The position numbers and the translations under genes were made by a program. From a virus, in IMG/VR virus record IMGVR_UViG_3300036766_002280, positions 1-54,802 of that record: DNA of 54,802 nucleotides, one strand, 5' to 3'. The notes below the pieces were generated by a model. It saw nothing but the letters and a program-made list of their open reading frames with translations, was not told the origin of the DNA and did no database searches. This document shows, piece after piece, positions 9,820 through 38,556 of the stretch. Every line of letters starts with the position of its first letter. Positions within the stretch are counted from its first letter, which is position 1.

Positions 9820-9836
9820 TTTATATCCATATTTAT

Positions 9837-9865
9837 TTGAAATTTACGTTACAATCAAGTATAAT
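9837..9865 (+). promoter_or_regulatory. Sigma70-type promoter for the downstream endonuclease, predicted leaderless
   Basis: TTGAAA at 9837-9842 and a perfect TATAAT at 9860-9865 are separated by exactly 17 bases. The downstream ATG (9872) is 6 bases after the -10 box, where transcription would normally start. No ribosome binding site precedes that ATG. A leaderless mRNA is therefore predicted. Confidence 0.65.
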
Positions 9866-9871
9866 AATATT

Positions 9872-16556: not shown

Positions 16557-16585
16557 TTGAATTTTTGTAGGAAAATTACTATAAT
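16557..16585 (+). promoter_or_regulatory. Sigma70-type promoter for the downstream endonuclease, predicted leaderless
   Basis: TTGAAT at 16557-16562 and TATAAT at 16580-16585 are separated by 17 bases. The ATG at 16593 follows the -10 box by 7 bases, at the expected transcription start, and there is no ribosome site between them. This is the same arrangement as in front of the endonuclease at 9872. Confidence 0.65.
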
Positions 16586-16592
16586 TAGTGCT

Positions 16593-18611
16593 ATGATTCC
16601 TAACGATACTTCCATTGTTAATAAGTATAAATCTACGCTTTCGGATCAAAAGCTTGGGGATCTTAATCCAGCTAAAAGGCCCGAAGTTAGACAAAAAATA
16701 AAAGATTCGCTACTCTCTAGAAAGTCCAATTTTGTAATTTTGAACTTATCCAAAGAAAGTCTTCTTGAAGAAATTAGTAATTTATTTTCCAGTAAGGCTA
16801 ACAATATCAAAAGTATTTCATCTTATCTTAGTCATAATACTTCTTTAGCTAAGGAAATAGAGCGCCATACTCCATTTTTAGTCACTGCGAATACTAATCA
16901 ACGACTTTATCATCTCAGGCACAATCTTGTTGAGCAGGGTAAATGCCTAACCTGTTGTAGTATTACTAAATTTGAAAATTATGCTAAAGGATATAGATCT
17001 TGGTGCAGTGTTGAATGCGTTCAAAATTCCACTCAGATTCAGGATAAAAAGAAGAAAACTTCATTTCAAAACTATGGAGCAGAATATGCCTTACAATCTG
17101 AATTAATCCAGAATAGGAAAAAACAAACAAATCTTGAACGATTTGGGGTAGAGGAACCTCTTAAATGTGATACTATAAAAGAAAAAATAAAACAAACAAA
17201 TCTTGAACGATTTGGGGTAGAAAATCCTTTTGAATTAGAGTCGATTCAAGAAAAAATAAGAGTAACAAATCTTGAACGTTATGGGGTAGCCTACCCACTT
17301 CAAAATAAAGAAGTACAAGAAAAAACAAAACAAACAAATCTTGAACGTTATGGAGTAGAAAATCCAGCAAAATCTGTAGAAGTACAAGAAAAAACAAAAC
17401 AAACTTGTTTAGAAAGGTATGGAGTAGAAAATCCAGCAAAATCTGCAGAAGTACAAGAAAGAATTAAGCAAACTAATCTTGAACGTTTTGGCTTTGAGAG
17501 TCCTTTTAAAAATAAGGAAATTAGAGATAAAACAAATAAAAAAATTTTTCAAAAGACTTATTTTAAATTACTGCACAACGATAAATTTAGTACTAAAATC
17601 AGGCCATTATTTTTACTAGAAGATTTCAAAGGGGTAGAATTCAGGTACAAATTTCAATGTCTAAAATGTGAGAATGTTTTTGAAGATAATTTACGAGATG
17701 GCAAAATTCCAAGATGTTGCATTTGTTTTCCTCATGCCAAATCCATATTAGAAAATAACATTCATGATTTTTTAAAATTGTGTAATGTTCCAAATATTTC
17801 TAGGAATTCCAAATCAATTATTCCTCCTCTAGAACTTGATTTGTACCTTCCTAATCATAAATTAGCTATCGAATTTAATGGAGTATTTTGGCATAGTGAA
17901 AACAGTCCTGGAGGCACAAGTCCTCAATATCATCTCAACAAGACTAAACTTTGCGAAGAAAAAGGAATTCAACTTCTTCATATCTTTGAAGATGAGTGGA
18001 TTGAAAAACAAGAGATTGTGAAATCAATTATCAAAAACAAACTAGGTTTAATAGAAAACAAAATCTATGCTCGTAATTGTGAGATCCGAGATGTTAGCAA
18101 CGAAGAAGCCTACAACTTTCTTTTTGATAATCATCTTCAAACTCCTGTAAATTCTAAGCACAATTTTGGATTGTATACTAAAGACAACGAACTAATGTAT
18201 TTGATAGGTTTGTCCAAACCTAGATTCAACAAAAAGTACGAGTACGAATTAGTTCGTTCTTGTCCTAGAATAAGTACTAGTGTAATTGGTGGATTTTCTA
18301 AACTTTTAAACTATGCTGTTAAAACTTTACAAATAAAAAGTTTAGTCAGCTACGTTGATAAACGATACTTTACTGGGTCTGGATACAACGATAAAAATTG
18401 GAAGTTAGCACATGAAACCACTCCGAATTACTTCTACACTACCGGGAATGTTTTAAGGGAATCACGAGTCAAATTCCAAAAACATAAACTAAAGCATTTG
18501 TTTCCCGATTTATACGATGCAAAACTAACTGAATGGCAGATCATGCAGTTAGCCGGATACGACCGTATCTGGGACTGCGGCAACCTAGTATTCGAGCTAA
18601 TTATTCAGTAA
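16593..18611 (+). CDS. Large homing endonuclease-like protein: zinc finger, RYGVENP repeats, Vsr-like nuclease
   Basis: A 672-residue protein. The ATG at 16593 is preferred to the frame start at 16557, which lies in the -35 box. It has a zinc finger (CLTCC...WCSVEC) and about eight repeats of the ERFGVENPFELESIQEK type. A CxxC pair (QCLKCENVF, CCICF) comes next, then a Vsr-like core (LELDLYLPNHKLAIEFNG, FWHSE, ending LLHIFEDEW). A further alpha/beta C-terminal domain (about 480-672) follows; its LVRSCPRISTSVIGGFSKLL looks acetyltransferase-like in pattern, which is weak. The gene separates the tube gene from the tail chaperone, so it is an insertion into a conserved tail operon. Confidence 0.8.
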   Translation: MIPNDTSIVNKYKSTLSDQKLGDLNPAKRPEVRQKIKDSLLSRKSNFVILNLSKESLLEEISNLFSSKANNIKSISSYLSHNTSLAKEIERHTPFLVTANTNQRLYHLRHNLVEQGKCLTCCSITKFENYAKGYRSWCSVECVQNSTQIQDKKKKTSFQNYGAEYALQSELIQNRKKQTNLERFGVEEPLKCDTIKEKIKQTNLERFGVENPFELESIQEKIRVTNLERYGVAYPLQNKEVQEKTKQTNLERYGVENPAKSVEVQEKTKQTCLERYGVENPAKSAEVQERIKQTNLERFGFESPFKNKEIRDKTNKKIFQKTYFKLLHNDKFSTKIRPLFLLEDFKGVEFRYKFQCLKCENVFEDNLRDGKIPRCCICFPHAKSILENNIHDFLKLCNVPNISRNSKSIIPPLELDLYLPNHKLAIEFNGVFWHSENSPGGTSPQYHLNKTKLCEEKGIQLLHIFEDEWIEKQEIVKSIIKNKLGLIENKIYARNCEIRDVSNEEAYNFLFDNHLQTPVNSKHNFGLYTKDNELMYLIGLSKPRFNKKYEYELVRSCPRISTSVIGGFSKLLNYAVKTLQIKSLVSYVDKRYFTGSGYNDKNWKLAHETTPNYFYTTGNVLRESRVKFQKHKLKHLFPDLYDAKLTEWQIMQLAGYDRIWDCGNLVFELIIQ

Positions 18612-19444: not shown

Positions 19445-21358
19445 ATGGCTGAAGAAAAGTTTGGAATAGATCCTGTTACTAAGCAAACTATAACAAAGGA
19501 TCTAAAAGATATAAAAGATATTCGAGATGAGATTACTTCGGCATTGTTACAGTCTTCGAAAGAAGGTATAGATTCTGTTTCAGAATTTTTAAAGGCTTTC
19601 AAAGATGCCACAAGTGAAGGATTTGCTTTTACTGATGTAATTACTGATCTTGAAGAGAAGTTTGGTGCTTCTTCTGCTGCTATCGGAGTTATTGTCGACG
19701 CTCTTAAAAAGGCAGAAGTAGCAGGGAAATCTGTAGAAGACGAAGCTGAAAAAATAACTGGAGCTTTTCGATTAGCAAAATCAGAAGTTGAAAAACTAGC
19801 ATTATCTTTAGATTCTTCTCTTAAGATTATGCAAAATATGGGAGCTACTGATTTAGCGGCTACTTTTGGAAAGATGAAAAAAGCTGCTGAAGAAATGGGA
19901 AAAGCTTTCGAACTGCTTACAGCTGGATCAGGAATGAAAGGTTTGCTGTTTTTATTAAGCGTCGTATCTGATATATTTGCTGTAACAAAACAATTGAGGG
20001 ATGCTTCTCAAGACATAAATAGAATAATGTATGATGCAAATGCTGCTATGGGTAAAATGGGGGAACGGCAGAATGATTTGCTTAAAGATGCAAATGAGTT
20101 AGCAACTAGATGGGCTATGACCCCTATAGAGGTCATGAAGGTGGAAAAAGGTCTTGCTGGTATTGGGGCAAATCAAAGTGAGATAAAAGATTTAACAAAG
20201 GATATTCTAGATTTGACTACAGCATGGACAGAAATTACTCCAGAGAAACAAATGCAAATGATGCAGCAGTTAATGCATAGTTTTGGGGCATCTGCTAAGG
20301 ATGCTAAAAATGCAATGTTTGCTTTGTACAAAGAAGCTGAAAATGTAGCTAGTGCCATGGGCATTACTAATATAAGCTCCAAAGATTTTGCTGACCATGC
20401 TATGGTATTAGAACAATCTGCTGGTAGGTTAGGATACAATTTAGGAGATGCCAAAGCAATTTTGTCTGCCATGGTGGCAACAATGAAGGATGCCAAAGGG
20501 GTTGTCGACATAGAATCTGCCACTAAATTAACTTCTGGCATAATGGGTTTAGGGGTCTCTAATATGGGAATGCAGGCTTACATGATGTCTCAGTTTGGAG
20601 GTCCAGGAGGAAAAGGAGTAGGCGGAACTGCAATAGAACAAGCTGGATCCTTTATTATGGCAGGAGCTAAAGAAAAAACTGATGCCCAGATGAGCATGTT
20701 TCAGCAGCTTATGGAAGGAGCAGGTGGAGGCAAAGTTCCTACTACCAAAGCAGGAATGGCTGGTGCAGCTGAATTAATAAGTCAGCAGTTTCAGTTAGGG
20801 ATGGATCCTACAGCTATCAAGGAAATGGTGGAGAAGGTAGGAACAGGAAAAGAAGGCATTGAAAAACTTAAATCAAAATTACATGAACAATTAGAGGCTT
20901 CAGAAAAATCAAGAATATCTAATTCTGCTGCCAACGCATTAATAGGTCAAAATACGAAAGAAATTGTTACTAGGACCAAGTCGGTAGAAGAGATTTTGAC
21001 TTCTAAGTTGGCTGATATAGGTGGTACTCTTAAAGATATTTTGCATGCATTTTTACATCCAGAAGACGCTAGATCCTTGGAAAAACAAAAGAAAGAACAA
21101 GAGCGTGCTATTGAAGACGCTAAAAAGAAAACAGATGAAATGATTAAAGAGGTTGCTTCTAGAAAAAGAATGGGAGAAGTAGGATTTGTAGAAGCGGCAA
21201 CAGAAGAACGTTTAAATACAGAATTAAATATGGATTCCCTATCAAGTGCAGGTAGATCAAGAGCGGCGGGCTGGGAAGCTATAATTACCTTACGTGAAAA
21301 ACCAGGAGCTGACCAATTTCCTGAAAAAGGATCATCCTCAGTTAAACTTAAAAAGTAG
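19445..21358 (+). CDS. Tape measure protein
   Basis: A 637-residue, almost wholly helical protein directly after the frameshifted chaperone. It is rich in Ala, Lys, Met and Glu. It has a hydrophobic stretch near residue 165 (GLLFLLSVVSDIFAV), Gly-rich hinges (GGPGGKGVGG near 390) and a charged coiled-coil end (KQKKEQERAIEDAKKKTDEM). Tape measures set tail length, eject during infection and often carry such a membrane-active segment. It is short for a myovirus, which predicts a short tail (under about 100 nm by the usual rise per residue). Confidence 0.8.
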   Translation: MAEEKFGIDPVTKQTITKDLKDIKDIRDEITSALLQSSKEGIDSVSEFLKAFKDATSEGFAFTDVITDLEEKFGASSAAIGVIVDALKKAEVAGKSVEDEAEKITGAFRLAKSEVEKLALSLDSSLKIMQNMGATDLAATFGKMKKAAEEMGKAFELLTAGSGMKGLLFLLSVVSDIFAVTKQLRDASQDINRIMYDANAAMGKMGERQNDLLKDANELATRWAMTPIEVMKVEKGLAGIGANQSEIKDLTKDILDLTTAWTEITPEKQMQMMQQLMHSFGASAKDAKNAMFALYKEAENVASAMGITNISSKDFADHAMVLEQSAGRLGYNLGDAKAILSAMVATMKDAKGVVDIESATKLTSGIMGLGVSNMGMQAYMMSQFGGPGGKGVGGTAIEQAGSFIMAGAKEKTDAQMSMFQQLMEGAGGGKVPTTKAGMAGAAELISQQFQLGMDPTAIKEMVEKVGTGKEGIEKLKSKLHEQLEASEKSRISNSAANALIGQNTKEIVTRTKSVEEILTSKLADIGGTLKDILHAFLHPEDARSLEKQKKEQERAIEDAKKKTDEMIKEVASRKRMGEVGFVEAATEERLNTELNMDSLSSAGRSRAAGWEAIITLREKPGADQFPEKGSSSVKLKK

Positions 21359-21361
21359 ATT

Positions 21362-22168
21362 ATGGCAGTTCAAAATCCAAAAAACGAACAGATATCTTTT
21401 ATTCCTGCTGATCCCACTATTCAGCCAGTTGAGTTGTTGATCAATCCTGAAACATTAACTCTAACTTGGAAAAAAGTTATTACCAGAAGAAGAACAAAAA
21501 CAAGATTGGTTACTTTTTTCTGGGGGGAAGAACCAGTTAAATTTACGTATCGAGGACAAACTGGATATGCCTATCCATCCCCATCAAACGTTACAGGATC
21601 AGTTTCAGCATCTTCCACAGCTCTTTTATCCCAGACTTATGCCTTAAATAGCGAGATAGGTCAATTACAAAGAGAAATCGATCAAGGTGGGGCAGGTGGT
21701 TATAAATATGTAACTGCTGATGGAAATCGCAATGCGCTGGCTAGTGTGAATACTCAGTTGGGGGGAGTAAGTCAGGCACTAGCTGCAAATACAACTATTT
21801 ATGATAATCTTGGATCTTTGTTTACTAATACTCAAATTCTTTATTTTTCTGATAAGTTTAAGATTCTTAAAAATTTGGAAGTTCTTTATCGGAAATACCA
21901 AACTCCGTCAGATACGTTAATGAAGTTGGTTTACAGGGATTATATTTTCAAAGGATATTTTGAAAGTTTTAGCTACACAGATGATGCGAAAAATCCTTGG
22001 AATTGGATTTACACGATCGATTTTACTATTTTGGATTGGACAGAATATCCAACGGCAACTATTACTGCAAATGGAGAAGTGGTCTTCCCTGGATCGCAGA
22101 ATGTTATGCTGGAAACAATTAAATCTGCCGTAAATTTATTAACAATCGATCAGCCTCCAACACAATGA
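21362..22168 (+). CDS. Baseplate/tail-tube-initiator-like structural protein
   Basis: A 268-residue protein following the tape measure gene by 3 bases. The N-terminal strand region (IQPVELLINPETLTLTWKKV) and later FTYRGQTGYAYP, plus a C-terminal beta domain (NPWNWIYTIDFTILDWTEYP), resemble proteins linking tail tube to baseplate hub. Position between tape measure and hub supports that. A helical insertion lies at about 85-150. It overlaps the next gene by ATGA, which indicates coupled translation. Confidence 0.6.
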   Translation: MAVQNPKNEQISFIPADPTIQPVELLINPETLTLTWKKVITRRRTKTRLVTFFWGEEPVKFTYRGQTGYAYPSPSNVTGSVSASSTALLSQTYALNSEIGQLQREIDQGGAGGYKYVTADGNRNALASVNTQLGGVSQALAANTTIYDNLGSLFTNTQILYFSDKFKILKNLEVLYRKYQTPSDTLMKLVYRDYIFKGYFESFSYTDDAKNPWNWIYTIDFTILDWTEYPTATITANGEVVFPGSQNVMLETIKSAVNLLTIDQPPTQ

Positions 22169-24072
22169 ACATTTTTGATAAGGCATTAAATCAAATGACA
22201 GGAAGAGGTTCTCGTACCCCTCTTTCTGATGATACAGCAAAATTACCATCGCACTATATCGAGGTCAATCCAAAATTCAATTCTGAAAGATCCACAAATC
22301 AATATGGTGCAGTTATTGTTAAATTTCATTGGGATTTACTTGCTCAAACAATTGCGTCAAGTTACTTTATTCGTGGCGAAGTAAGAAAAGATATTATGAC
22401 TGCTTTACAAAATACTCCTGTAAAAGATATGAAACAATATCAAACTTTTAAATCGGCTTTGGTTTACTATTTTTCTGATTTGAATAAAACATTTGATAGT
22501 TCTAAAAGTTTGGATGTCCAGTTAAACAAGTTTGCTAATGAGAGTTTGCTTTCAAGTAGAACAAATATTTCTACCACGTTAGGATCTGGAACTGCCCAGT
22601 TAACGTTTGAAAATTTAGATAATCAATGGCTGTTTCAAGCAAGCGATAATACTTATGCTGATTTGTTTGGGGAAGTCTTGTTTATGGAAGGTCTTTATCT
22701 AACTATTGACGCCATAGGTAGATTTGATTCTACTAAGTATTATCGTATTTTTACTGGATCAGTTAAGTCTTATACTGTTACAGATAATCCTGAGGATAGA
22801 ACAGTAAGTATTGATTGCAGGGATCTATCAAAGCTTCTAACCTCCAGCAGATATAATGTTCATCCTGCTTTGTTTAACACGGATCTAGCAGCTTTACAGG
22901 GCAAAGTAACTATTGCAAAAAATAATTTACAAAATAAATCAAATGTAGAAATTGCCAAATTAGTTATTCCAGATGTAACTAAGGGTGAGTGGAGCAATCC
23001 AACTGATAAGTTTAGTGTTGCAGCTTTCAAGGAAATGTGGAAACCTCCTACGTCTTTACCTATCAAGCATATTAGTAATGCTGTTGGAGGAACTGATTTA
23101 GTTACTCAGACTTATAGAAAAATTTATAATGCTTCTGAGGCTTCCTATGATAATGAGGTACAACAGCCAGGAGAAACGGAACTGTACTATTTAGTCTGGG
23201 GGGACAAGCAATCAGATTCAGATAAAGGAGTTTTTTCTAACACTGCCCATCCTGCTTATGCTTTAATGTTTAATAAGTTTGAATTATATCTTAGTGAATA
23301 TCAAACAAGAGCCACAGTTTTAAAAGATACGGCGGATTTAACTTTATTTTTTACTTATTTGGATTCTTCTGGAAATATTCATTTTCATCCCTCTAGACAT
23401 GATTATTTGATATCTGATAAAAATACTGAAGGATATCCAATGTATCGATTGAATAATTTGGATGGTTCTCTAGAAAATGCCTATACCTATATTCTAGATC
23501 CAGGGGAATCTATTTCTGAATCCTACTCATCGGACGAAGAAACTATTTTTACTAATTTAAAAGTGACTGGAGAAAGCGCCTTTGGAATTTTTGGACAAAT
23601 TCAAGGGGTAAACCCTAGAATGTATAGACCTATGGTTGCCTGGTGGGATGGAATGAAAAGGTTTGGATTTAAAGAACAAACCATAAGCACTGCTGCATTT
23701 CAAGGTTCAGATGCTGAAGCAAAATTGAAAGCTTTTGGACTGGCAGTTTTTATGCGAAGTTTTTTTATGCGAAGGACCATGACTTGTTCTATTCCTTTAC
23801 GTCCTGAGTTGGATATAGACAGACCCTTTTATGTTCCAGGAAGAAAAAAAGTTTATCATATCAAAGGAATTCAGCATTCCTATACAGCTGGAACTGATAG
23901 AAGTGGCGGAGAGTTTATAACTACTGTAAATTGTGATTCAGGAAGACCTTTGCATCAAGCTGATTTGATAAGCACTAATCTTTTTAAAAATTTAGATTCT
24001 GATCAGTTGATTAATATTTTTTATGAAAATGGTTTTAATCTTGATGTAGATATAGGTGGTACGGGGAAGTAG
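22165..24072 (+). CDS. Baseplate hub protein (T4 gp27-like)
   Basis: A 635-residue protein in the hub slot between the tube-initiator-like gene and the spike gene. It contains phage late-control/gpD-type features: ...GSVKSYTVTDNPEDRTVSI (about residues 190-210), then a long insertion. The C-terminal ring domain includes FYVPGRKKVYHIKGIQHSYT and TTVNCDSGRPLH. Hub trimers connect tube to spike. The assignment rests on synteny and these tube-like strand patterns. It starts within the previous stop codon (ATGA). Confidence 0.7.
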   Translation: MNIFDKALNQMTGRGSRTPLSDDTAKLPSHYIEVNPKFNSERSTNQYGAVIVKFHWDLLAQTIASSYFIRGEVRKDIMTALQNTPVKDMKQYQTFKSALVYYFSDLNKTFDSSKSLDVQLNKFANESLLSSRTNISTTLGSGTAQLTFENLDNQWLFQASDNTYADLFGEVLFMEGLYLTIDAIGRFDSTKYYRIFTGSVKSYTVTDNPEDRTVSIDCRDLSKLLTSSRYNVHPALFNTDLAALQGKVTIAKNNLQNKSNVEIAKLVIPDVTKGEWSNPTDKFSVAAFKEMWKPPTSLPIKHISNAVGGTDLVTQTYRKIYNASEASYDNEVQQPGETELYYLVWGDKQSDSDKGVFSNTAHPAYALMFNKFELYLSEYQTRATVLKDTADLTLFFTYLDSSGNIHFHPSRHDYLISDKNTEGYPMYRLNNLDGSLENAYTYILDPGESISESYSSDEETIFTNLKVTGESAFGIFGQIQGVNPRMYRPMVAWWDGMKRFGFKEQTISTAAFQGSDAEAKLKAFGLAVFMRSFFMRRTMTCSIPLRPELDIDRPFYVPGRKKVYHIKGIQHSYTAGTDRSGGEFITTVNCDSGRPLHQADLISTNLFKNLDSDQLINIFYENGFNLDVDIGGTGK

Positions 24073-24080
24073 GAGATTAA

Positions 24081-25154
24081 ATGCATGTAGCAGGAGATTC
24101 TGTTTATCCATCTTATATGTTAGGCAATGTTACTTCTGTCCATCCAGAAACTCATTCGATAGATGTTCAGCTGTATGGCTATATTGAGTTGTTAGAGAAA
24201 GTACCATTATTTAGAACTCCCGGTACTGTAAATCTTCCTCATAAAGAAGATATGGTTATTGTTATTTTTGATAGGCGTCATAAACCATTGGCTATTGGAT
24301 GGTATCCGAAATTTATAAGAGACGATATCAGTATCAGTAAAGTTTATCAACTTCAAGAAGGGGAGCTTCTTCTACATTCAGACTACGGCGGGAGACTTAT
24401 GATGCTTAAATCAGGCATTATGAGGTTTTCCAACTGGGTAGATCAGGGAATTGAAATCGATGGGGCTTCTGGATCTTACATCGAACGTTCTCCGAGTAAG
24501 AAAGATATTTTTGCAGGGGTTGTGGAACGGCATGGGTATATTAGAAGAGCAGGAGTAGTTACTCTAGGCGGTACTCCAAGTATTTTTGAAATGGATAATC
24601 TGGAGAGTTTGTTAAAGAAAGTAGGGACCATTTCTGCTACTGGGGCAATCACAACCTTAAATGATCCAGGAAGTATTGAGCTATATGAAAAAAGAATAGA
24701 AGTAAAAGTTCCGGGAAGTGCTACAACTGCTGCTCCGAATGGAATAAATATTTTTGAGGATACTGTTGGCACAGCGGTAATAAGTAACAATAGTGTTGCA
24801 GGAGTTTACCAAGAAACTTTAAGCAGTCCTCCAGTAACAGCAAATACTCCTACACCGAATCCACTTCGCAGGAAAACTGTTTACTACGATTCGGCAGGGG
24901 TAACTCCATTGGTTACAGAGGAAGTAGATTGTTTTGGAAATATCAATATCAGTATAAGTGCCTTGGCAACAAACGGAGTAAATTTGACTACCCCTTTCCT
25001 TGCTTTGAATGTTAGAAGTGCTGCTTTAACTCCGACAATGATTCCACCAACAAGTATGGGAAATATTGTTACTAATAATCCTGTTAACGCGGATCCTATA
25101 ACTGGAATACCCCTACAAGGTATTTTACAGTTAGCAGTGAATACGGCACTGTAA
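24081..25154 (+). CDS. Baseplate spike/OB-fold protein (gp5/gpV-like)
   Basis: A 357-residue protein preceded by AGGAG. The N-terminal domain (YMLGNVTSVHPETHSIDVQL...VPLFRTPGTVNLPHKEDMVI, seen as two segments) has the pattern of the gpV/gp5 OB fold. It is followed by HSDYGGRLMMLKSGIMRFSN, which begins a repetitive beta region. The C-terminal part is Thr/Asn/Val-rich. It probably forms the membrane-puncturing spike below the hub. I see no lysozyme domain. Confidence 0.65.
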   Translation: MHVAGDSVYPSYMLGNVTSVHPETHSIDVQLYGYIELLEKVPLFRTPGTVNLPHKEDMVIVIFDRRHKPLAIGWYPKFIRDDISISKVYQLQEGELLLHSDYGGRLMMLKSGIMRFSNWVDQGIEIDGASGSYIERSPSKKDIFAGVVERHGYIRRAGVVTLGGTPSIFEMDNLESLLKKVGTISATGAITTLNDPGSIELYEKRIEVKVPGSATTAAPNGINIFEDTVGTAVISNNSVAGVYQETLSSPPVTANTPTPNPLRRKTVYYDSAGVTPLVTEEVDCFGNINISISALATNGVNLTTPFLALNVRSAALTPTMIPPTSMGNIVTNNPVNADPITGIPLQGILQLAVNTAL

Positions 25155-25155
25155 T

Positions 25156-25776
25156 ATGGCATTAGTAGCAAATGTACTAAACGGTTTATTACAAACAGCT
25201 ATGGCGGCAAAATTTGCCCCATACAACAACGGAGTGGTAGGTCCACAGTTTGTTAACTTTTCAACGGCATTATCAGCAGGAATAAATACCGGAATAGTAG
25301 GATCCACTTTTAATACGGTTGATGTTGGATCAGTTGCCAATCCAGGAACTGGAGTAGGGTTAGCTATAACGGGGTTGAGCACATCGACTTTAAGTACCTT
25401 AATGTATAACAATTGTTATACTGCTTTTGGAAATAGCGCAGGAGTAAGATTGCAGGACCTTACAGATGCCATTTCAGCTTCGGTAGTAACCCACTTGGCT
25501 CAAGCTGTTTTTACTAGTACGCATACCCCTGTATACACTGGAACTGGGGTGGTTTCTTTTGCTTTGTCGTCAATGAATTCTGGCACTATGGCTTTAGCTA
25601 TAAAAAATGCCGCACCACTCTTTACAGGACTTCAATGGTTAAATCTTTGTAATTCTGTTGCTAGTGCCATTGTGACTCATATTAAAGCAGTTGGCACAGG
25701 AGTAGTGGTTATTACAGGAGCAGCACCTCCTTCCCCTGTTCCGGGAGCTGGAGTTGGTACAGGAGTGGTTTCTTAA
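25156..25776 (+). CDS. Putative baseplate/virion structural protein
   Basis: A 206-residue Ala/Gly/Ser/Thr/Val-rich protein starting 1 base after the spike stop. It has two related halves, each with a Val/Ile-rich segment containing ..SA.VTH (ISASVVTHLAQAVF and VASAIVTHIKAVGTGVVVIT). That pattern suggests an internal duplication. It ends with a Pro/Gly tail. No family is recognised; it is placed by context in the hub/spike region. The stop abuts the next ATG. Confidence 0.55.
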   Translation: MALVANVLNGLLQTAMAAKFAPYNNGVVGPQFVNFSTALSAGINTGIVGSTFNTVDVGSVANPGTGVGLAITGLSTSTLSTLMYNNCYTAFGNSAGVRLQDLTDAISASVVTHLAQAVFTSTHTPVYTGTGVVSFALSSMNSGTMALAIKNAAPLFTGLQWLNLCNSVASAIVTHIKAVGTGVVVITGAAPPSPVPGAGVGTGVVS

Positions 25777-26388
25777 ATGGCAGTATTTGCATTAAGTCCT
25801 TGCCTTAAAGCTTTCGTTCTAGCACTTTCTGCCCCATTACGGGCTCAGCTTAGAACTTTGTTGTATACAGCTCAAGGAATTTTAAAGGCTCAAATTGCTC
25901 AGAATGTAGCTTTACTTGGAAGAAATGATATTTCAAAAGCCTTGTACAAAAATGCCGTAGATCAGATTGAGAGCTACCTTAGACCTATAGAGCAGGCAAT
26001 GAATTTGATTCCTTTTTCTGATATGGCAGGATGCGTTGAAGGCAATGTAATGTTGTCCAACGTTCAGAATATTTATTTTCAATACAAAGGAAAGGCTCAA
26101 GATTTTGCTTACAAGTATGCGCAGTACGGATTTGCTAGTACCTATGCCACTAAGACTCAGGATGAGTTAATAAACGCTTTGAATCAGATAACAGGAATAC
26201 TGGATCAATTGGATAATCTAGGGTCGTCCTTAGTAACAATTGGGACAAGGGTACAAGTCTATTCAATAAATAAGATAGGTACGGTAACTGGTTTACCATC
26301 TGGAAATCAGGTTACCGTTACTTTGGATATTCCACCACCAGCAACTATCACAACAGGGGCAGGAGACGTTGGGGTAGTTAATGCTTAG
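25777..26388 (+). CDS. Putative baseplate-associated structural protein
   Basis: A 203-residue protein starting directly after the previous stop. It is mostly helical (LRAQLRTLLYTAQGILKAQI; DELINALNQITGILDQLDNL) with a short C-terminal beta segment (NQVTVTLDIPPPATITTGAG). It could be a chaperone or a structural component; nothing in the sequence decides. It closes the hub/spike cluster and is followed by the 5' leader element of the gp25-like gene. Confidence 0.5.
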   Translation: MAVFALSPCLKAFVLALSAPLRAQLRTLLYTAQGILKAQIAQNVALLGRNDISKALYKNAVDQIESYLRPIEQAMNLIPFSDMAGCVEGNVMLSNVQNIYFQYKGKAQDFAYKYAQYGFASTYATKTQDELINALNQITGILDQLDNLGSSLVTIGTRVQVYSINKIGTVTGLPSGNQVTVTLDIPPPATITTGAGDVGVVNA

Positions 26389-27226: not shown

Positions 27227-27236
27227 GGAGTAATTG

Positions 27237-28709
27237 GTGGCTATTTTAGACGTATTTCAGATGGTAACACAGCTTCAAAATTTTATTAAAGCTAAAAATC
27301 CACAAGTAGATATACAACCTGGCACGGATTTGTATGATCTTTTATTTTTAACAAATGCTCAAGCTGCCAGATCTTTATTTGAGGCAATAAATACTTTACA
27401 GTTGAATCAAAGCCTATCGACAACGACTGGAACTGATTTAGATTTAATTGCAAAGAATTATAACATAACAAGACGTCCTGCTACGTATGCTACAGGGGAA
27501 GTAACTTTTTACGCAACGTCTTTTTCGACTGATATTTTGATTCCAAGTGGGACAATTGTCAGTACAGCTGGAACAAATGTTACCCCTCCGATTAGATTTT
27601 TGACCACAAAATCGGTTGGAATGGATGTTGTTAATAAAGCTATCTATTACGATTCTACTGCTACAAGATATCAAGTTACGACGCCAATAATTGCTGAATC
27701 TGCAGGCATTTCTTCTAATGTTGATACCCAGATTATAAATCAGATTGTTTCTCCAGTAGCTAATATTAGTGGGGTAGTAAATAATACTCCTACAATTGAT
27801 GGAACAGCACAAGAAACTGATGCCCAACTTCAGCAAAGATGTCTTCAAGCCTTTGTTGTCGGTAGCGTAGGAACTTTGTATGGGTATAGAAAATTACTAA
27901 CTGATAACTATACACAAGTGCTGGATGTTAAATCTATTGGCCCATTTGATACTGGTGCTATTAGAACAGATGGGGTAGATACTTTTGTGATTCTTTCCTC
28001 TACTTCCTCTGCTGGTAACAGCATCCAAACGTCCGAAACTTTCGTTTTTAATACGGGAGATACTGGGTACGTTCCAGTTAATAGACCTGTAATTACTATT
28101 GATACCGTATATGGCACAGCGACAGGGGCGGTCAGAACTTTTATACCATATCCGAATGCTTTCCCAGATTATAAATATGTAAAAGATACTACAGGGGCAT
28201 ACGCTATGTCAGTTCAATCAGCGGATAAACTTTTGTGGCTGTCTGGAATCAAACCTGATACAAATTCAAGTGTTTTAATTACTTATACTTATAACAGTCT
28301 GGTTCAGACTATGCAAACGTTTATGAATCGGGATGAAAATAAAGTGGTAGGTGCTAATGCCTTAGTTAAGCTAGGCTTCATAGCACAGACATATATAACT
28401 TTGTCTGTAAAATACTTTTCAACTGTAACAGATACTGGAGCTGCTCAGACTAAAGTTGCTGCAGCAATTACACAATATTTGTCGTCTTTTACATTTGGGC
28501 AGCAACTAGATTTATCTGATCTTATAGTAGTTGTTCAGACTGGAGCTTTTACTGATTATACTATAACAGAAGTAGATTACGTAGTTTTTAACACAGCTCA
28601 AATGTATGCAATTGTTCCTGATCTTGGGTATACCCTACCGATGGTCAACGACGTTATTATAGTTTCAGCCAACCAGTACATCCGTGAAGGACTAACTGTT
28701 TTTGTATAA
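27237..28709 (+). CDS. Baseplate J-like / T4 gp6-like wedge protein
   Basis: About 490 residues. GTG at 27237 is 6 bases after AAGGAG; the TTG at 27234 is only 3 bases away. The N-terminus (VDIQPGTDLYDLLFLTNAQA; STTTGTDLDLIAKNYNITRR) and ETDAQLQQRCLQAF are hallmark baseplate J sequences. The middle is beta-rich, and the C-terminal QYLSSFTFGQQLDLSDLIVV matches the family's last domain. It joins neighbouring wedges around the hub. It follows the gp25-like gene as in most contractile tails. Confidence 0.85.
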   Translation: MAILDVFQMVTQLQNFIKAKNPQVDIQPGTDLYDLLFLTNAQAARSLFEAINTLQLNQSLSTTTGTDLDLIAKNYNITRRPATYATGEVTFYATSFSTDILIPSGTIVSTAGTNVTPPIRFLTTKSVGMDVVNKAIYYDSTATRYQVTTPIIAESAGISSNVDTQIINQIVSPVANISGVVNNTPTIDGTAQETDAQLQQRCLQAFVVGSVGTLYGYRKLLTDNYTQVLDVKSIGPFDTGAIRTDGVDTFVILSSTSSAGNSIQTSETFVFNTGDTGYVPVNRPVITIDTVYGTATGAVRTFIPYPNAFPDYKYVKDTTGAYAMSVQSADKLLWLSGIKPDTNSSVLITYTYNSLVQTMQTFMNRDENKVVGANALVKLGFIAQTYITLSVKYFSTVTDTGAAQTKVAAAITQYLSSFTFGQQLDLSDLIVVVQTGAFTDYTITEVDYVVFNTAQMYAIVPDLGYTLPMVNDVIIVSANQYIREGLTVFV

Positions 28710-32594: not shown

Positions 32595-34874
32595 ATGAAA
32601 AGAACTGAGTTTGCAAACCTTGTCCTTGTAGCTATGGAAGATCTCAACAACTTAGCACAGTATTATGTCCAAGCAATTAAAGAACGTTCAAACGCTGCGA
32701 CTACTGGAACAGATCCAACAGGGGTAACTACTCCTGCTTATAATGGAATTGTAAAGTCCTCAACTGATTTACTACTGACATCGATTTCTCCTAGTCCTAA
32801 TGTTACCATAACAACTGGAGCTGCTTATACTAGATTCGATCCTACTTCTGTAACTCAAAGTAGTAATCAGTATAATGGTGGGGAAAGAGTTGGTTTGGCA
32901 TCTTCTATTGCCGCACCAATTAAAAATACTTCAGGGCATAGCTATTTCTTTTTAGTATACGCAGAGTTACGTAAGAGTAAAAAGTATGATGAAAGTGGAG
33001 TAAATGCTTATTTTGTAGATAGACCAGAATCTTACCTAGTAGTTCAGATGACTGCAGCAGAAGCAACAGCTCTAGGATCCTATACAATCAATCCTACAGG
33101 AACAGTTACGGTTACCAATGTTGCGGCTCCCCATCTAGATTCAGTTTTAAGTAATGCTGAAAAAAGTGCCACTTTTAGTGGTTGGACTTACTTAAGTGGG
33201 GTATTTACTGTTACTAGTTTTACTGTTACTCAGTACAATTCTGTTTATTTAGGACATATGAATGCTACTGCTTATTCAGCTCCAAATGTTACTTACACAG
33301 TTGATGCTAGTTCTCAGGTTCTTGGATCTAGTACGTTTTCTAGACCACTTTTTTCTACTGTTGATCAGCTTCATAGAACTCAGTTAGGAAGAGGTACTTC
33401 TTCTACTACTAATCCTCATGGTATGCTTATTCAGGATCTTGGTAATTTAGATGATATAAGGGAACTTATTAGTTCTGGTATAATTCCTAAGTTTACTGGT
33501 TCATTAGCATGTGTTGTCAACGGAGTTTCAGGAAATGTTGTTATTACCAATTTATCTGGAATAGATTATTTGTTTATGGATGGAAAAAGGGTCACTACAG
33601 TAAGTCCTCTTACCATTGCTGTTTCTGGTATGACCGCAGGTATTAACTATGTTTACGTTCAAATACTAGGAACAGTTCAAACGCAAGGAACAGCACCATG
33701 GAACTATTACATAGGAAGCGTTGTTGCGGCAACTTCGGTTCCAAGTTCAAATGCTTTTGTGTTATGTTCAGTATATGTTTCAGGTGGTATTGCTTATGCC
33801 TATAATGGAGATACAAGATATGTTGCAGGTAGTACTACTAATCCAGTAACAGATCTAAGAGTGTTTGGAGTTGATGGATATGATTATCTTCACAGTACTT
33901 TGTATGAATCCATTAACAAAGAAAATATGATTCCAAACGGAAGTATGCAAGCAAGTGAAAGAGGAAAAATAAAAGGATGGGTAACAGGAGCAATATCTAC
34001 GTTACTTCCTGCAAGCGGAAGTACAGCTTTGTATGCTTCTGCTGTGGATGATAGTCTCTTATTTCCTTTTGATGCTAATATTGATTATGCTTTTCGTGTT
34101 AAGGTAAATACACGTCCAACTCCTTCCACAACTGGTGCTTCTACTTATACTATTAAGTTGTTATTATTTAGAGGAAAAGATCGATCAAAAGATCTAGTTG
34201 GTCAATATACTTTAGTTTCTGAAGTTGCTCAAACTCATTCTACTTGGTTTTCTCCCTCAGTTACTGATTTTTTATCAGGATCTGCTATATCGGCAAGTAG
34301 TCCACCAGCACCTGGTACTTTTGATCCAAACGTTGCAGATAGAAGTGCAATTGGCTGGGCATGTATTGAAATTACCCCTACTGTAGGGGTAATCAACCTT
34401 GTAGACATGATTCTACGTCCTAAGATGCAAACTAGTGATATAAGTAATCTTGCTGTTACTACAGCTAAAATTGCTAACGCAGCTGTAACAGAAACACAGT
34501 TAGCTACAAGCGTTGCTGGATATGCTTTAACAGGTGGCGGAGGAACTCCATTAAGTGTTGTCGCGGATGAATCTTCATTAACAGTTGATACTGTAGGAGA
34601 TTTAATTAAGATAAAACCAGCAGGTGTTACAACTTCTCATGTTAATACTTCTTCCGAAATTGGACGTGTTATTGTTAATGGAACTGTTATGCTGGATAGT
34701 GCTGGTGAAAATATAGGGTCAGCTCTTAGACTTGCATTTGGTGGGGTTACCTACTATGTTCCAGGATGGACCTCAGCCAATGGTTGTGGATGCACCTGTA
34801 CTTGTACAGGAAACTGTGGTTGCACTTGTACTTGTGCTGGGGATTGTGGATGCACTGGAACTTGGGGAAATTAA
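32595..34874 (+). CDS. Tail fibre protein with C-terminal cysteine tandem repeat
   Basis: A 759-residue protein preceded by GGAGGA. The N-terminus is helical (FANLVLVAMEDLNNLAQYYV), then long Ser/Thr/Val/Tyr-rich beta regions typical of fibres, with a carbohydrate-binding-like module near 450-600. Residues 1-730 contain only three cysteines. Residues 731-753 contain ten, in repeats of [N/D]CGCTCTC[T/A]G, followed by the end GTWGN. The gene for a radical SAM enzyme begins one base after the stop, and its ribosome site lies in the last fibre codons. The tail therefore looks like a modified or metal-binding tip; this is inference. It has no likeness to a known fibre C-terminus that I can recall. 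Confidence 0.75.
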   Translation: MKRTEFANLVLVAMEDLNNLAQYYVQAIKERSNAATTGTDPTGVTTPAYNGIVKSSTDLLLTSISPSPNVTITTGAAYTRFDPTSVTQSSNQYNGGERVGLASSIAAPIKNTSGHSYFFLVYAELRKSKKYDESGVNAYFVDRPESYLVVQMTAAEATALGSYTINPTGTVTVTNVAAPHLDSVLSNAEKSATFSGWTYLSGVFTVTSFTVTQYNSVYLGHMNATAYSAPNVTYTVDASSQVLGSSTFSRPLFSTVDQLHRTQLGRGTSSTTNPHGMLIQDLGNLDDIRELISSGIIPKFTGSLACVVNGVSGNVVITNLSGIDYLFMDGKRVTTVSPLTIAVSGMTAGINYVYVQILGTVQTQGTAPWNYYIGSVVAATSVPSSNAFVLCSVYVSGGIAYAYNGDTRYVAGSTTNPVTDLRVFGVDGYDYLHSTLYESINKENMIPNGSMQASERGKIKGWVTGAISTLLPASGSTALYASAVDDSLLFPFDANIDYAFRVKVNTRPTPSTTGASTYTIKLLLFRGKDRSKDLVGQYTLVSEVAQTHSTWFSPSVTDFLSGSAISASSPPAPGTFDPNVADRSAIGWACIEITPTVGVINLVDMILRPKMQTSDISNLAVTTAKIANAAVTETQLATSVAGYALTGGGGTPLSVVADESSLTVDTVGDLIKIKPAGVTTSHVNTSSEIGRVIVNGTVMLDSAGENIGSALRLAFGGVTYYVPGWTSANGCGCTCTCTGNCGCTCTCAGDCGCTGTWGN
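34785..34853 (+). repeat. 30-base tandem repeat encoding the Cys-rich fibre tip
   Basis: About 2.3 copies of a 10-codon unit of the form TGTGGATGCACYTGTACTTG followed by TRCWGGRRAY. Each full copy encodes four cysteines separated by one residue (CGCTCTC). The unit could expand or contract by slippage, which would change the number of cysteines at the fibre tip. Confidence 0.85.
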
Positions 34875-34875
34875 G

Positions 34876-35805
34876 ATGGAAATGATTCAGTTTGAAGTAA
34901 ATATGGCAAACACTTGTCCCATGCAGTGCCACAATTGCTTGATGTCTAAGTACAGACCTGCTCAAGATATTATGGCAGAAGTTATTGCTGCCGTAGATAA
35001 AGAGTTTCCTGTATTCACGTGGATTACTGGCGGAGAACCAAGTCTATTTCCAGATAAAATCGAACTGTATCTTAAAAATGGTAATATTTGTCAGATGCCT
35101 AGTGCTGGAGTATACAATGAAGACCAACTGGTTGGACTATTGGAAAAGTATCCAAACTTTAGACGAATAAATGTTTCAATTCTAGGAACGCAGGAGTATG
35201 AAAAAGAATTTAGAAAAGTGGATAAGAATTACAAACGAAATTGGATGTGGAAAGTTGGAAGGGATCGTTTAATGATCATGTTTGTAATCTTTAAAGAGTC
35301 TGTAGACAAAGAACAGATTTATAAAAATATAGATTATGTATTTAAACATTACCATTATTTTCCGATAATGATTTACTATGATAGATATTCAGAGCATGAC
35401 CCATCTGGAATAGATGCCTTCGATCAAGAAGAATTGATTGAGTATGGTCATTATATCAAAGACAAACAGCTGTACTACAACTGCGAAGTTCAAATTTATC
35501 CAGTGAGGGTACTTAGACCAACCGTGTTTGCAAGTGGATCCAACCTAATGTTCTATCATGGTAAAATATCACATTCAATTCCTGCTGAAGAAGTGTTGAA
35601 AGATCCTGCAGGATTTGTTCATACTCTAATGTCCAGTCATTATCTTAATTCAATTGATACTTCAAAAAATTGCGATGTTCATAAACAGTATCAATGTGGT
35701 GGTCCATTTTGTAGGCTAGGATATAAACAAGATTGTAGAAATTATTGGTCTCAGTTTATTATTCCTTCCAGAGAAATAAAAACAAGATCTTTTTCTTTGA
35801 AATAA
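34876..35805 (+). CDS. Radical SAM enzyme, candidate fibre-tip maturase
   Basis: The start is ATG at 34876 (or 34882). The longer frame from 34732 runs through the fibre's cysteine repeat out of frame and has no ribosome site. The 309-residue protein has the cluster motif CPMQCHNC (residues 14-21, CX3CX2C) and the GGEP motif (52-55) for SAM binding. A C-terminal group of cysteines (NCDVHKQYQCGGPFCRLGYK, then QDC) may hold an auxiliary iron-sulfur cluster. Its GGGGA ribosome site lies in the fibre's final codons, so expression is tied to the fibre. Radical SAM enzymes next to Cys-rich peptides usually install thioether or related cross-links. The substrate here is inferred from position only. 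Confidence 0.8.
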   Translation: MEMIQFEVNMANTCPMQCHNCLMSKYRPAQDIMAEVIAAVDKEFPVFTWITGGEPSLFPDKIELYLKNGNICQMPSAGVYNEDQLVGLLEKYPNFRRINVSILGTQEYEKEFRKVDKNYKRNWMWKVGRDRLMIMFVIFKESVDKEQIYKNIDYVFKHYHYFPIMIYYDRYSEHDPSGIDAFDQEELIEYGHYIKDKQLYYNCEVQIYPVRVLRPTVFASGSNLMFYHGKISHSIPAEEVLKDPAGFVHTLMSSHYLNSIDTSKNCDVHKQYQCGGPFCRLGYKQDCRNYWSQFIIPSREIKTRSFSLK

Positions 35806-35816
35806 ATGGAGGAAGT

Positions 35817-36125
35817 ATGGCATTAAGTCAATCAGTACAGCAGGTAGGTATTATAATTGATAGATATTTTTTAAAGGACGTTCCACTGTCAAGTGTTGAT
35901 ACTGCCTTAGTTGGAATGACCGTTACAGATATGGTGGGATTTTTTGATCAGCATGGAAGCACGATTATGCCTCAAAGAGTATTTTCACTTCTTCTTAGAG
36001 GTTTGTCCAGAGCAAATCCAACTTATAAGGTTTGGTTTTTGAGTTCAGAATACATTCAGGCAATTCTAGCTAATACTGCTACTATAACTGAAGCATCTAA
36101 TATAATTCAGGAGTTGATACTATGA
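35817..36125 (+). CDS. Small protein in the radical SAM cassette, unknown
   Basis: ATG at 35817 has GGAGG immediately upstream; the frame start at 35745 is inside the previous gene. The 102-residue product is mostly helical and hydrophobic (QQVGIIIDRYFLKDVPLSSV; FSLLLRGLSRANPTYKVWFL). It contains no cysteine. It overlaps the next gene by ATGA. In RiPP clusters small proteins at this position often serve as recognition or partner proteins, but I see no decisive motif. Confidence 0.6.
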   Translation: MALSQSVQQVGIIIDRYFLKDVPLSSVDTALVGMTVTDMVGFFDQHGSTIMPQRVFSLLLRGLSRANPTYKVWFLSSEYIQAILANTATITEASNIIQELIL

Positions 36126-36547
36126 ATATAAAGTTGATAGAGTTTGCCGTTACGGATCCACTGCCTACGAATTTTCCTGTTTATGGATCAGTTGGATTTG
36201 TGGACTACTTAAGGGATGCTTCTCTTTTTGCTGCAGGGGATGCTATTTATTGTCCAGTACGAGCATCCTTAGGAAGAGGCATTCGGGAGTTGTATGTAAA
36301 TTTTAATGCTCAGTTATTTAATTATACGGTAAGTGCCTTTAGTAGTGTTATTCTGAATCATTTGTGGGGATCTCCAACTCAATTTAAAAATGATCTAACT
36401 CAATTAATTTCAGTTAATCTAAATTTTGTTTTGATTTTGGCAGGTTCTCTGGAAGATTTTGATTTAGTAAGACAGCTTGGAGCTGGATCGTTTTATACAG
36501 TTGTGGTAACATACGATGCAGGGTTAGATAATCTTAAAGTTGTGTAG
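36122..36547 (+). CDS. Small alpha/beta protein in the radical SAM cassette, unknown
   Basis: A 141-residue protein translationally coupled to its neighbour (ATGA overlap). Strand-helix patterns recur (LNFVLILAGSLEDFDLVRQL; SFYTVVVTYDAGLDNLKVV). Its single cysteine (IYCPV) is not in a cluster. It is not recognised. It is followed by the second copy of the conserved leader element, which introduces the SPASM enzyme. Confidence 0.6.
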   Translation: MNIKLIEFAVTDPLPTNFPVYGSVGFVDYLRDASLFAAGDAIYCPVRASLGRGIRELYVNFNAQLFNYTVSAFSSVILNHLWGSPTQFKNDLTQLISVNLNFVLILAGSLEDFDLVRQLGAGSFYTVVVTYDAGLDNLKVV

Positions 36548-36557
36548 ACAAATAATC

Positions 36558-36617
36558 GAATTATAACCCCTTAGTGAGAACCCTCTTGAGTCTTTAACTC
36601 AGGGGTAGTTCAAGGAG
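36558..36617 (+). promoter_or_regulatory. Conserved 5' leader element, copy B
   Basis: This is the 60-base partner of 26388-26450. TATAAC (36562-36567) has TTGTGT 16 bases upstream (36540-36545). A longer hairpin forms from GAAC-CCTC-GAGT paired with ACTC-GGGG-GTTC around a CTTTA loop. AAGGAG follows, 8 bases before ATG 36626. Sequence differences from copy A fall mostly in positions that keep or weaken pairing, not in the loop. Confidence 0.65.
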
Positions 36618-36625
36618 ATAAGATA

Positions 36626-38017
36626 ATGCAAGTGCAATCATCAGCGTATATTCATGGAAAATTAGGAAATACCTCATCGTTTGTAGTCTACTATCCAAAT
36701 ACGAATGTCTACGAGATTGCTAACGATTTACCGGGCATTTCTTTCGATTTTGGGGATAAATACCAACACCTCATTTGGAAACTTTTCAAGTTATCTAGAA
36801 CCCTTCAAATCTACAATGAAACTTTTGAAACAGACAGAAACTATACCCTGTTTATTGAACCGTACGGAACTTGTAATCTGAAATGTTCTTACTGCTATGA
36901 AAAAGATAGTTGGTTCAATAAAAATAAGTTGGAGTATGATCGTATTGTCGAGGTCATCGGACTTTACAAAGTGAAAGATATTCGAATCTTTGGTGGAGAA
37001 CCATTCCTTGATGAGCAAATGATTTTGAGGCTGTTCAAAGAGTATCCAGATATGGAGTACCATGTTTCTTCCAATGGCATTCCTATCACAGAAAGAATTG
37101 TTGAAGCTCTGAATGAGGTACAATGCAATTTGCAATTGAGTCTTGAACCAGAAGAATGGAAGCAGAGAGTTAACTACGTTGAAACGACTCAGATGGAATT
37201 GCTTGAGCCAAAATGGAAGATAATAAGAAAATATAGAGGAAGACTTTCTGTCCGGGTTACTATTCCCTGTGATATGGATATTCCGTATGTATCTTTTATT
37301 GATTTTGTGGATAGAATTGCGGAGAAGAAAGGCGATTACAATTTTTCTTTGTCGCTTTGGCCTTCAGCAGGACAAAAACTTCCAGTGTGGTTTGATAAAG
37401 TGTTGGAAGAAGGCCAGATAATTTTGGACGATCCAGAACTTAGAAAGAAAATGTATGATAAATTTGTTTGGACTTCTTATATTAGCAGGTTCAAAGAATT
37501 CACCAGATTTCCTTGGTACATGGCAAATTGTAATGCAGGCAGTAGTTCAATCAGCTTGGCTCCAAGTGGAATGCTATATGGTTGCCACGAAGACGCAGTC
37601 ATTGAGAACGAGGCATCTTTAATTGGAGCAAAAACTGTTGACCCTGATAAACAATTCAAAGTGATTAGCGAGTATATAAGAGCAGCGAATACAAAAAAAG
37701 AATGTCCAACGTGCGATGCCCGGTATATGTGTGGCGGTATTTGCTATACAAAAGAAATTGATAGTGCTTGCGACTATTCCAGAAAGATAATGCCCTTACT
37801 GATGAGGTGGATGCCTTTGGCTGTATCCAGGCAGTTACCAAGTTGGGAAGGAAAAACAAAGGAATTTGAGACTTTTATTAAAATGAATATGACTGAGTTG
37901 GATTTGTTCTTTCAGGAGGAAGTATGGAATCAGTATTGTTGTGGGGAGCTACCAAAGGAAAAGGTTCTGGAGTTGGGGAAAGTGTTGCAAAGTCTCTTAT
38001 CGCAAAAGACAAGTTAG
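36626..38017 (+). CDS. SPASM-domain radical SAM enzyme, candidate peptide maturase
   Basis: A 463-residue protein. Residues 1-75 may be a substrate-binding domain. The radical SAM core has TCNLKCSYC (82-90) and GGEPF (123-127). From about residue 300 the spacing CNAG...GCHED...CPTCDARYMCGGIC...C fits a SPASM domain binding auxiliary clusters, as in anSME, PqqE and thioether-forming RiPP maturases. It lies in the same direction as the fibre and first radical SAM gene, with two coupled small genes between. I infer that it modifies the Cys-rich fibre tip or another peptide. Its last 94 bases overlap the SDR gene. Confidence 0.85.
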   Translation: MQVQSSAYIHGKLGNTSSFVVYYPNTNVYEIANDLPGISFDFGDKYQHLIWKLFKLSRTLQIYNETFETDRNYTLFIEPYGTCNLKCSYCYEKDSWFNKNKLEYDRIVEVIGLYKVKDIRIFGGEPFLDEQMILRLFKEYPDMEYHVSSNGIPITERIVEALNEVQCNLQLSLEPEEWKQRVNYVETTQMELLEPKWKIIRKYRGRLSVRVTIPCDMDIPYVSFIDFVDRIAEKKGDYNFSLSLWPSAGQKLPVWFDKVLEEGQIILDDPELRKKMYDKFVWTSYISRFKEFTRFPWYMANCNAGSSSISLAPSGMLYGCHEDAVIENEASLIGAKTVDPDKQFKVISEYIRAANTKKECPTCDARYMCGGICYTKEIDSACDYSRKIMPLLMRWMPLAVSRQLPSWEGKTKEFETFIKMNMTELDLFFQEEVWNQYCCGELPKEKVLELGKVLQSLLSQKTS

Positions 38018-38556
38018 TAATCCTTGCAGGTAGAAACGAGCAAAAATTATTAAAACTTAGTTCTGAAGTTGGTTATCCCGCTGATAGCCAATATACATTC
38101 GTTTCTGGTTATCCATTAGATCCGATTCTGTATCAAAACATACTGGAAAAGCACAATATTAGAACAGTAATAAGTTTTATTGGAGTAGGCTACGCAGAGG
38201 CACTTCCATTCCTCGATGATACTTTGATTGCCGATATGGTTCAAAGTAATTTTTTGGTAAATCTTGACATTATTAAAAAATCAATTATCCCGTTGAAACG
38301 AAGGCATAGTACAATTATTATTGCAAATTCTATTGTTGGAATGCTTCCTCATGAGGGATCTTCCGTCTATACAGCGAGTAAATTTGCACTAAGAGGACTG
38401 ATTGAAAGCGCTAGAATCGAGCTAAGAGAATTTAACGTAGGTTTATGTAGTCTATATTTTCAAAACGTCAAAAGAGCAGGAATGGATTCTCTGGTTGATT
38501 GTATTTTAACCGCTAGTAAGAACGCTCCTTTGAACTTCGATTTTGTAATTAGCTAG
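37924..38556 (+). CDS. Short-chain dehydrogenase/reductase (SDR)
   Basis: A 210-residue protein. The ATG at 37924 is preceded by AGGAGG (37915-37920) and lies inside the 3' end of the SPASM gene in another frame (94-base overlap). It has a glycine-rich nucleotide-binding start (WGATKGKGSGVGESVAKSL), a catalytic Ser in ANSIVG and the YTASK form of YxxxK. SDRs use NAD(P)H; some tailor peptides in RiPP pathways. Its role here is unknown but the overlap ties it to the cassette. Confidence 0.75.
   Translation: MESVLLWGATKGKGSGVGESVAKSLIAKDKLVILAGRNEQKLLKLSSEVGYPADSQYTFVSGYPLDPILYQNILEKHNIRTVISFIGVGYAEALPFLDDTLIADMVQSNFLVNLDIIKKSIIPLKRRHSTIIIANSIVGMLPHEGSSVYTASKFALRGLIESARIELREFNVGLCSLYFQNVKRAGMDSLVDCILTASKNAPLNFDFVIS

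Follow-up and report, generated by a model that had tools for sequence, protein, structure and literature searches.

The genes that directly follow a tail fibre-like gene in a 54,802-nucleotide stretch of viral DNA (the window) probably constitute a system by which the phage matures the tip of its own tail fibre post-translationally. The window is part of a 118.8-kb virus record with a contractile-tail-like module, and the fibre ends in a dense array of cysteines behind which two radical SAM enzymes are encoded. We regard the array as the presumed substrate of these enzymes: some kind of tip modification appears very likely, and we lean slightly towards thioether formation as the main chemistry. 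The pairing of Cys arrays with radical SAM genes recurs in dozens of unrelated phages, which points to an undescribed hardening or arming of tail tips. In open PMC full text, where absence is not proof, no literature was found that connects Cys-rich fibres with radical SAM enzymes, and the arrangement is considered novel on the basis that nothing comparable appears there.

A cysteine-rich fibre tip and the genes behind it

The fibre gene lies 3′ of baseplate genes, including a baseplate wedge gene at 27234–28709. The features of the fibre and the adjoining cassette are as follows.

32595–34874, plus strand: open reading frame for a tail fibre-like protein of 759 aa, the candidate substrate
34785–34853, plus strand: Cys-array tip, fibre residues 731–753, CGCTCTCTGNCGCTCTCAGDCGC, 10 Cys in 23 aa
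34864–34868, plus strand: GGGGA, probable ribosome site of radical SAM enzyme 1, judged from the sequence
34876–35805, plus strand: radical SAM enzyme 1 (rSAM-1), 309 aa, with CPMQCHNC and a further Cys cluster close to the C-terminus
35817–36125, plus strand: open reading frame for a small protein of 102 aa, an accessory candidate
36122–36547, plus strand: open reading frame for a small protein of 141 aa, coupled to the 102-aa gene
36626–38017, plus strand: radical SAM/SPASM enzyme 2, 463 aa, SPASM region at about 37529–37765
37924–38556, plus strand: short-chain dehydrogenase/reductase (SDR), 210 aa (PF00106, 3.2e-14)

A preliminary description of this DNA had reported ten cysteines within 23 residues at the fibre C-terminus, and these were located at residues 731, 733, 735, 737, 741, 743, 745, 747, 751 and 753, with only three of the protein's 13 cysteines falling in residues 1–730. 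When the fibre was shuffled with its 13 Cys kept, none of 20,000 shuffles reached ten in 23 residues (maximum six), and no other window ORF of at least 60 aa exceeds six Cys per 23 residues. The C-terminal end of the protein reads ...YYVPGWTSANGCGCTCTCTGNCGCTCTCAGDCGCTGTWGN. The repeat had been written as [N/D]CGCTCTC[T/A]G; this stands for units 2 and 3, which are preceded by N and D, but not for unit 1, which is preceded by G (NG-CGCTCTCTG). Differences between the repeat units are partly synonymous (GGA/GGT, ACC/ACT, GGA/GGG), so the repeat is maintained as a protein feature.

The fibre had no match in Pfam, PHROG, NCBIfam or PDB, and a Pfam scan found no S74 chaperone (PF13884) in it. Its C-terminal 149 residues, tip included, align with the Cys-tipped fibre of another phage contig (L117, described below) at 31% identity in a BLAST search without composition correction. 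The array proteins, the window fibre included, are predicted to be present in the virion. Elsewhere in the window, two large homing-endonuclease-like genes with LERYGVENP repeats (PHROG 3339) sit amid the structural region at 9770–11404 and 16557–18611, and toward the window start, 64–3210 and 7806–8933 encode long proteins that look propeller-like by eye and are rich in NYAYI/INLTTF-type repeats.

The cassette genes are tightly packed behind the fibre, all on one strand, and their arrangement agrees with the earlier account. The first radical SAM gene starts one base after the fibre stop (stop ending at 34874, ATG at 34876), and the use of the last fibre codons as its ribosome site is plausible. 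The two small genes are coupled by a 4-nt overlap, and the SDR gene overlaps the SPASM gene by 94 nt. Enzyme 2 is a radical SAM protein by Pfam (PF04055, 51.1 bits, cut-off 29.5) with CxxxCxxC at residues 83/87/90, and its SPASM assignment was borne out by TIGR04085, where it scored 36.1 bits (cut-off 27). By comparison, rSAM-1 appears to be a weaker match to the family, and uncharacterised (PF04055, 4.9e-5, 24 bits, under the curated cut-off of 29.5; PHROG 1802, 4.5e-6). Searches of Pfam, PHROG and NCBIfam gave no convincing family match for the 102-aa protein and none for the 141-aa protein, and neither rSAM-1 nor the two small genes have relatives among the other cassette loci. The SDR was not found in the other cassettes compared. 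The window cassette contains no separate Cys-rich small ORF, and no peptidase or exporter family was detected by Pfam, PHROG and NCBIfam in the seven window proteins scanned.

Recurrence of Cys arrays beside radical SAM genes

A protein search of viral contigs yielded no close relatives of the SPASM enzyme, rSAM-1 or the fibre; with tblastn against named phages the SPASM enzyme gave weak radical SAM matches only, and rSAM-1 and the fibre gave none. Relatives were instead obtained by scanning IMG/VR DNA for the codons of the CGCTCTC tip. All long ORFs ending in this motif come from phages with radical SAM genes directly behind, and the motif terminates the fibres of L034, L077 and L030. In L117 (a 363.5-kb contig) and L118 a pair of small genes separates the fibre gene from four syntenic radical SAM genes; the fibres align over their last ~80 residues only, tip included, and the four enzymes are collinear and 31–40% identical. 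In L119 (a 170-kb contig) a 245-aa gene, three radical SAM genes and a methylthiotransferase-like radical SAM gene of MiaB/RimO type (1.5e-43) were found. A scan for (CT)n identified a lambda-like siphophage family (L181/L376) in which a 191-aa protein ending CECECTCTCTC... precedes two radical SAM genes. Matches to the (CT)4 pattern were mostly low-complexity reading frames (CRCRCR and similar) and served as an internal control. On bacterial genome contigs with CGCTCTC, no convincing array protein and no adjoining radical SAM gene was seen among the matches listed.

Searching from the enzyme side with an alignment of radical SAM proteins (R4), 80 loci were fetched, most of which contain Cys-repeat proteins. 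The partners comprise (CTCNCNY)n, (PCNCNF)n and CDC-rich arrays as well as distinct CXX and CXXX repeats, and between the array cysteines the predominant residues are T, N, D and Y. Several (CTCNCNY)n arrays immediately precede SDxRLK, with which the S74 tail-spike chaperone (PF13884) begins; the chaperone scores above cut-off directly behind the array in three proteins (L409, L406 and L442). In an AF2 model of the L409 array protein the pLDDT was <50 throughout the array, and we make no claim about its fold. Long CXX or CXXX repeats lie beside radical SAM genes in L380, L395, L424, L411, L413, L426, L377, L404 and L445, and these two periods appear to form second and third array classes apart from CxC. 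The CXXX (CHSN) arrays of L404 are carried on a protein resembling, by eye, the L409 carrier of CTCNCNY arrays.

In total, at least 43 non-redundant Cys-array families, counted at 70% identity, adjoin radical SAM genes (CGCTCTC, (CT)n, (CTCNCNY)n, (PCNCNF)n and others). In an independent codon scan of loci of at least 4 kb, a radical SAM ORF was present at 38 of 42 CTCNCNY-array loci, compared with 1/34 chance-frame loci (Fisher p 7e-16) and, among other phage loci, 1/182; the sole positive chance-frame control, L497, probably contains the end of a real array. Six array contigs initially lacked a radical SAM gene, five of which have 3–11 such genes elsewhere in the contig; the 43.8-kb fragment G007 has an array and no radical SAM gene in the contig. 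Conversely, a Cys-rich partner (an ORF in which 60 aa hold 9 or more Cys, within the fetched 9–17 kb) was identified for 34 of 42 non-redundant radical SAM groups and at 21/118 control phage loci, a control biased upward because its loci were fetched for Cys-codon patterns. The remaining eight groups had no Cys-rich partner inside the fetched stretch, and no Cys-rich protein was found near the radical SAM loci of Atu_ph07 (three annotated radical SAM genes in the stretch) and phiKSUM. The preliminary description had suggested a database search for other phages with this pairing; the outcome favoured its interpretation, as many unrelated phages were recovered with Cys arrays that are C-terminal or close to the chaperone, from arrays and enzymes alike. 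Radical SAM relatives without a Cys-rich fibre, which it had named as contrary evidence, are rare, as the proportion of groups with a partner indicates.

The pairing also occurs in isolated phages. A 534-aa protein with a CTCDCNY array is encoded in each of the 15 Firehammervirus records (Campylobacter phages) found, and in all 15 a SPASM radical SAM gene lies ~2.2 kb downstream of it. Phages with an array protein and a nearby SPASM radical SAM gene include CP220, CPt10, CP21, F379, IBB_35 and others; in CP220 (L527) the array protein is at 20932–22536 and the enzyme at 24742–25911, and in CP21 (L479) the enzyme is 3.8 kb from the array start. The array protein of vB_CcoM-IBB_35 has the accession AEF56812. 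The array locus is annotated as hypothetical in the CP220 group and as N-acetylneuraminate pyruvate lyase in CP21, a label that looks like a misannotation. A 21-bp intragenic repeat and 11–12 radical SAM proteins were reported separately for such phages by Timms et al. 2010 (PMC2853527), who considered a metabolic benefit for the latter and did not mention cysteine. The central five-enzyme cluster of CP220 (L529, 64000–83900) contains no Cys-array protein, indicating that some phage radical SAM enzymes stand outside the array system and that other roles exist.

Arrays are conserved independently of the proteins that carry them: across 19 aligned array proteins (A4), pairwise identity is 90% in the array and 26% in the fibre body. 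That tip and enzymes form one functional unit is best supported by two loci of one siphophage kind, L376 (5965–9181) and L392 (4528–9113), whose flanking proteins are 62–93% identical. Their Cys proteins are 24% identical over the body and differ in Cys pattern, and their radical SAM sets (two versus three enzymes, 23–28% identical) were replaced together with the Cys protein. The pair constitutes a natural experiment on substrate–enzyme specificity.

Proposed chemistry and alternative explanations

The SPASM enzyme is similar in both sequence and predicted fold to CteB, the SCIFF maturase that forms thioethers. CteB was its top PDB match by sequence (5wgg, 4.4e-9) and the top Foldseek match (5e-12) of an AF2 model with a mean pLDDT of 67, which exceeds 90 in the core and is low at the N-terminus and in parts of the SPASM region. 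In a check for a RiPP recognition element (RRE), the N-terminal 65 residues were found within the CteB-aligned span, with model pLDDT there <52. The best NCBIfam equivalog models for the enzyme are RiPP maturases, PapB first (3.2e-16), all well under cut-off: the PapB ranthipeptide maturase model NF047865 scored 59.5 bits (equivalog cut-off 340) and the SCIFF maturase model TIGR03974 47 bits (cut-off 425). The QhpD model TIGR03906 was matched at 43.9 of 453 bits (1.2e-11). Across the cassettes, a profile built from 71 radical SAM enzymes matches CteB at 2e-55, the PapB model matches 55 of the 71, and the top match to TIGR04115 reaches 9.7e-103.

We propose that the nascent or trimerised fibre tip would be acted on by the co-expressed radical SAM enzymes of the same operon, most likely yielding thioethers between Cys sulfur and carbon atoms of neighbouring Thr, Asn/Asp or Gly residues, with the SPASM maturases of ranthipeptides and sactipeptides as precedent. 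The presumed products of the small genes are accessory or recognition proteins for the fibre; the SDR might be a redox tailoring enzyme. Maturation would give the fibre a compact distal end, either a needle or a receptor-binding cap, that is laced covalently and withstands proteases and redox changes, rigid enough, perhaps, for receptor contact or envelope penetration. Endosialidase chaperones autoproteolyse at Ser; in the S74 versions, cleavage at the chaperone Ser would expose the array as the extreme C-terminus, the position it already occupies in the window fibre.

The alternative that survives best, though unlikely, is that the enzymes act on the array by another chemistry, such as formylglycine formation, epimerisation, methylthiolation, C-methylation or C–C / C–O cross-linking. 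The top structural and family matches include anaerobic sulfatase maturases as well, the L119 cassette includes its methylthiotransferase, the second radical SAM enzyme of the L181 family looks B12-type by eye, and the several different enzymes per cassette suggest several modifications. Thioether formation is nevertheless favoured by CteB as the nearest solved structure to the window SPASM enzyme by PapB (ranthipeptide) as the most frequent best model and by the absence of the C-x-P-x-R sulfatase motif from the tips.

It is distinctly less probable that the array forms the needle of a trimeric fibre and binds metal or Fe-S there, by analogy with the HxH iron sites of T4 gp37 and P2 gpV, with the enzymes helping to assemble a cluster or being incidental. 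Such a needle would fit CxCxC strands in a three-fold fibre, where the thiols would face a common axis, and the high constraint on array residues. However, arrays are accompanied by 1–11 radical SAM genes, whereas HxH tips require no dedicated enzymes, and the period-7, CXX and CXXX arrays lack a single common coordination geometry. The HxH motif itself is absent from the window tip, which contains no His.

Extracellular Cys-rich tips often form disulfides, and cysteines this dense could do so, or bind metal, without enzymes. A disulfide-rich cap that forms by itself upon release from the cell is still very improbable: CxC, with one intervening residue, is a poor spacing for intrachain disulfides, and the enzymes would be left unexplained. 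Least credible of all is that the radical SAM and SDR genes serve auxiliary metabolism or DNA modification and adjoin the fibre by accident, since, although a metabolic advantage has been proposed for the Campylobacter phage enzymes (PMC2853527) and the window phage also has a QueE-like radical SAM gene (G000:91939), the Cys-array association (38/42 versus about 1/182) spans unrelated phages, translation is coupled to the fibre, SPASM domains are typical of peptide and protein maturases, and the enzymes are exchanged en bloc with the Cys protein.

QueE-type deazaguanine chemistry was rejected for the cassette, the QueE-like gene (G000:91939–92685) being far from the fibre. The window also encodes a protein of 941 aa (51744–54569) whose matches are to glutamine amidotransferase and QueC-like families, which together with the QueE-like enzyme makes 7-deazaguanine DNA modification possible. 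A further radical SAM-like gene (CDLGCAYC, IGGGNP), slightly under the Pfam cut-off, is located outside the fibre region at G000:58103–58981.

Returning to maturation of the fibre tip, we consider it reasonably likely that many phage lineages have dedicated radical SAM systems that lace Cys-repeat arrays (CxC, CXX, CXXX, CTCNCNY) on fibre or spike tips, a RiPP-type chemistry on virion proteins in which array and enzymes are exchanged as one module. If true, no enzymatic system that cross-links phage tail fibres would have been known before this one; it would also account for phages that carry as many as a dozen radical SAM genes, and provide a large natural set of Cys-repeat substrates with matched enzymes.

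Comparison with known maturation systems

By analogy, the cassette appears to work like ranthipeptide or sactipeptide maturation, yet not to be a member of either. The earlier view of the tip as a RiPP-type core is sound as an analogy, but leader, short precursor and export are absent; as the cassette has neither short precursor nor exporter and no score reaching an equivalog cut-off, it is not classed as a RiPP system. The likeness to the ranthipeptide/SCIFF systems (PapB, CteB) lies in a radical SAM gene and a SPASM enzyme adjoining a Cys-dense target. In the window, however, that target is the C-terminus of a 759-aa predicted virion protein rather than a short leader–core precursor, no protease or exporter accompanies it, and the scores are far under the equivalog cut-offs.

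The CXXX-repeat RiPP systems (TIGR04115 / TIGR04119) similarly combine fixed-period Cys repeats with radical SAM maturases, and CXXX arrays occur in the phage cassettes L377, L413 and L426, with one partial TIGR04119 match among phage cassettes. The window array is CxC, and where the bacterial systems yield peptides, the phage ones involve long proteins. In quinohemoprotein amine dehydrogenase maturation, the radical SAM enzyme QhpD introduces cross-links in a structural subunit, not a peptide product; its substrate is unrelated to the window fibre. The T4 gp37 needle and the P2 gpV tip carry HxH iron sites, which harden the extreme C-terminus of a trimeric fibre or spike, whereas the window tip has Cys in place of His and dedicated enzymes. 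Among isolated phages, the likeness is to CP220 and CPt10, in which a CTCDCNY array protein is likewise accompanied by a nearby SPASM radical SAM enzyme.
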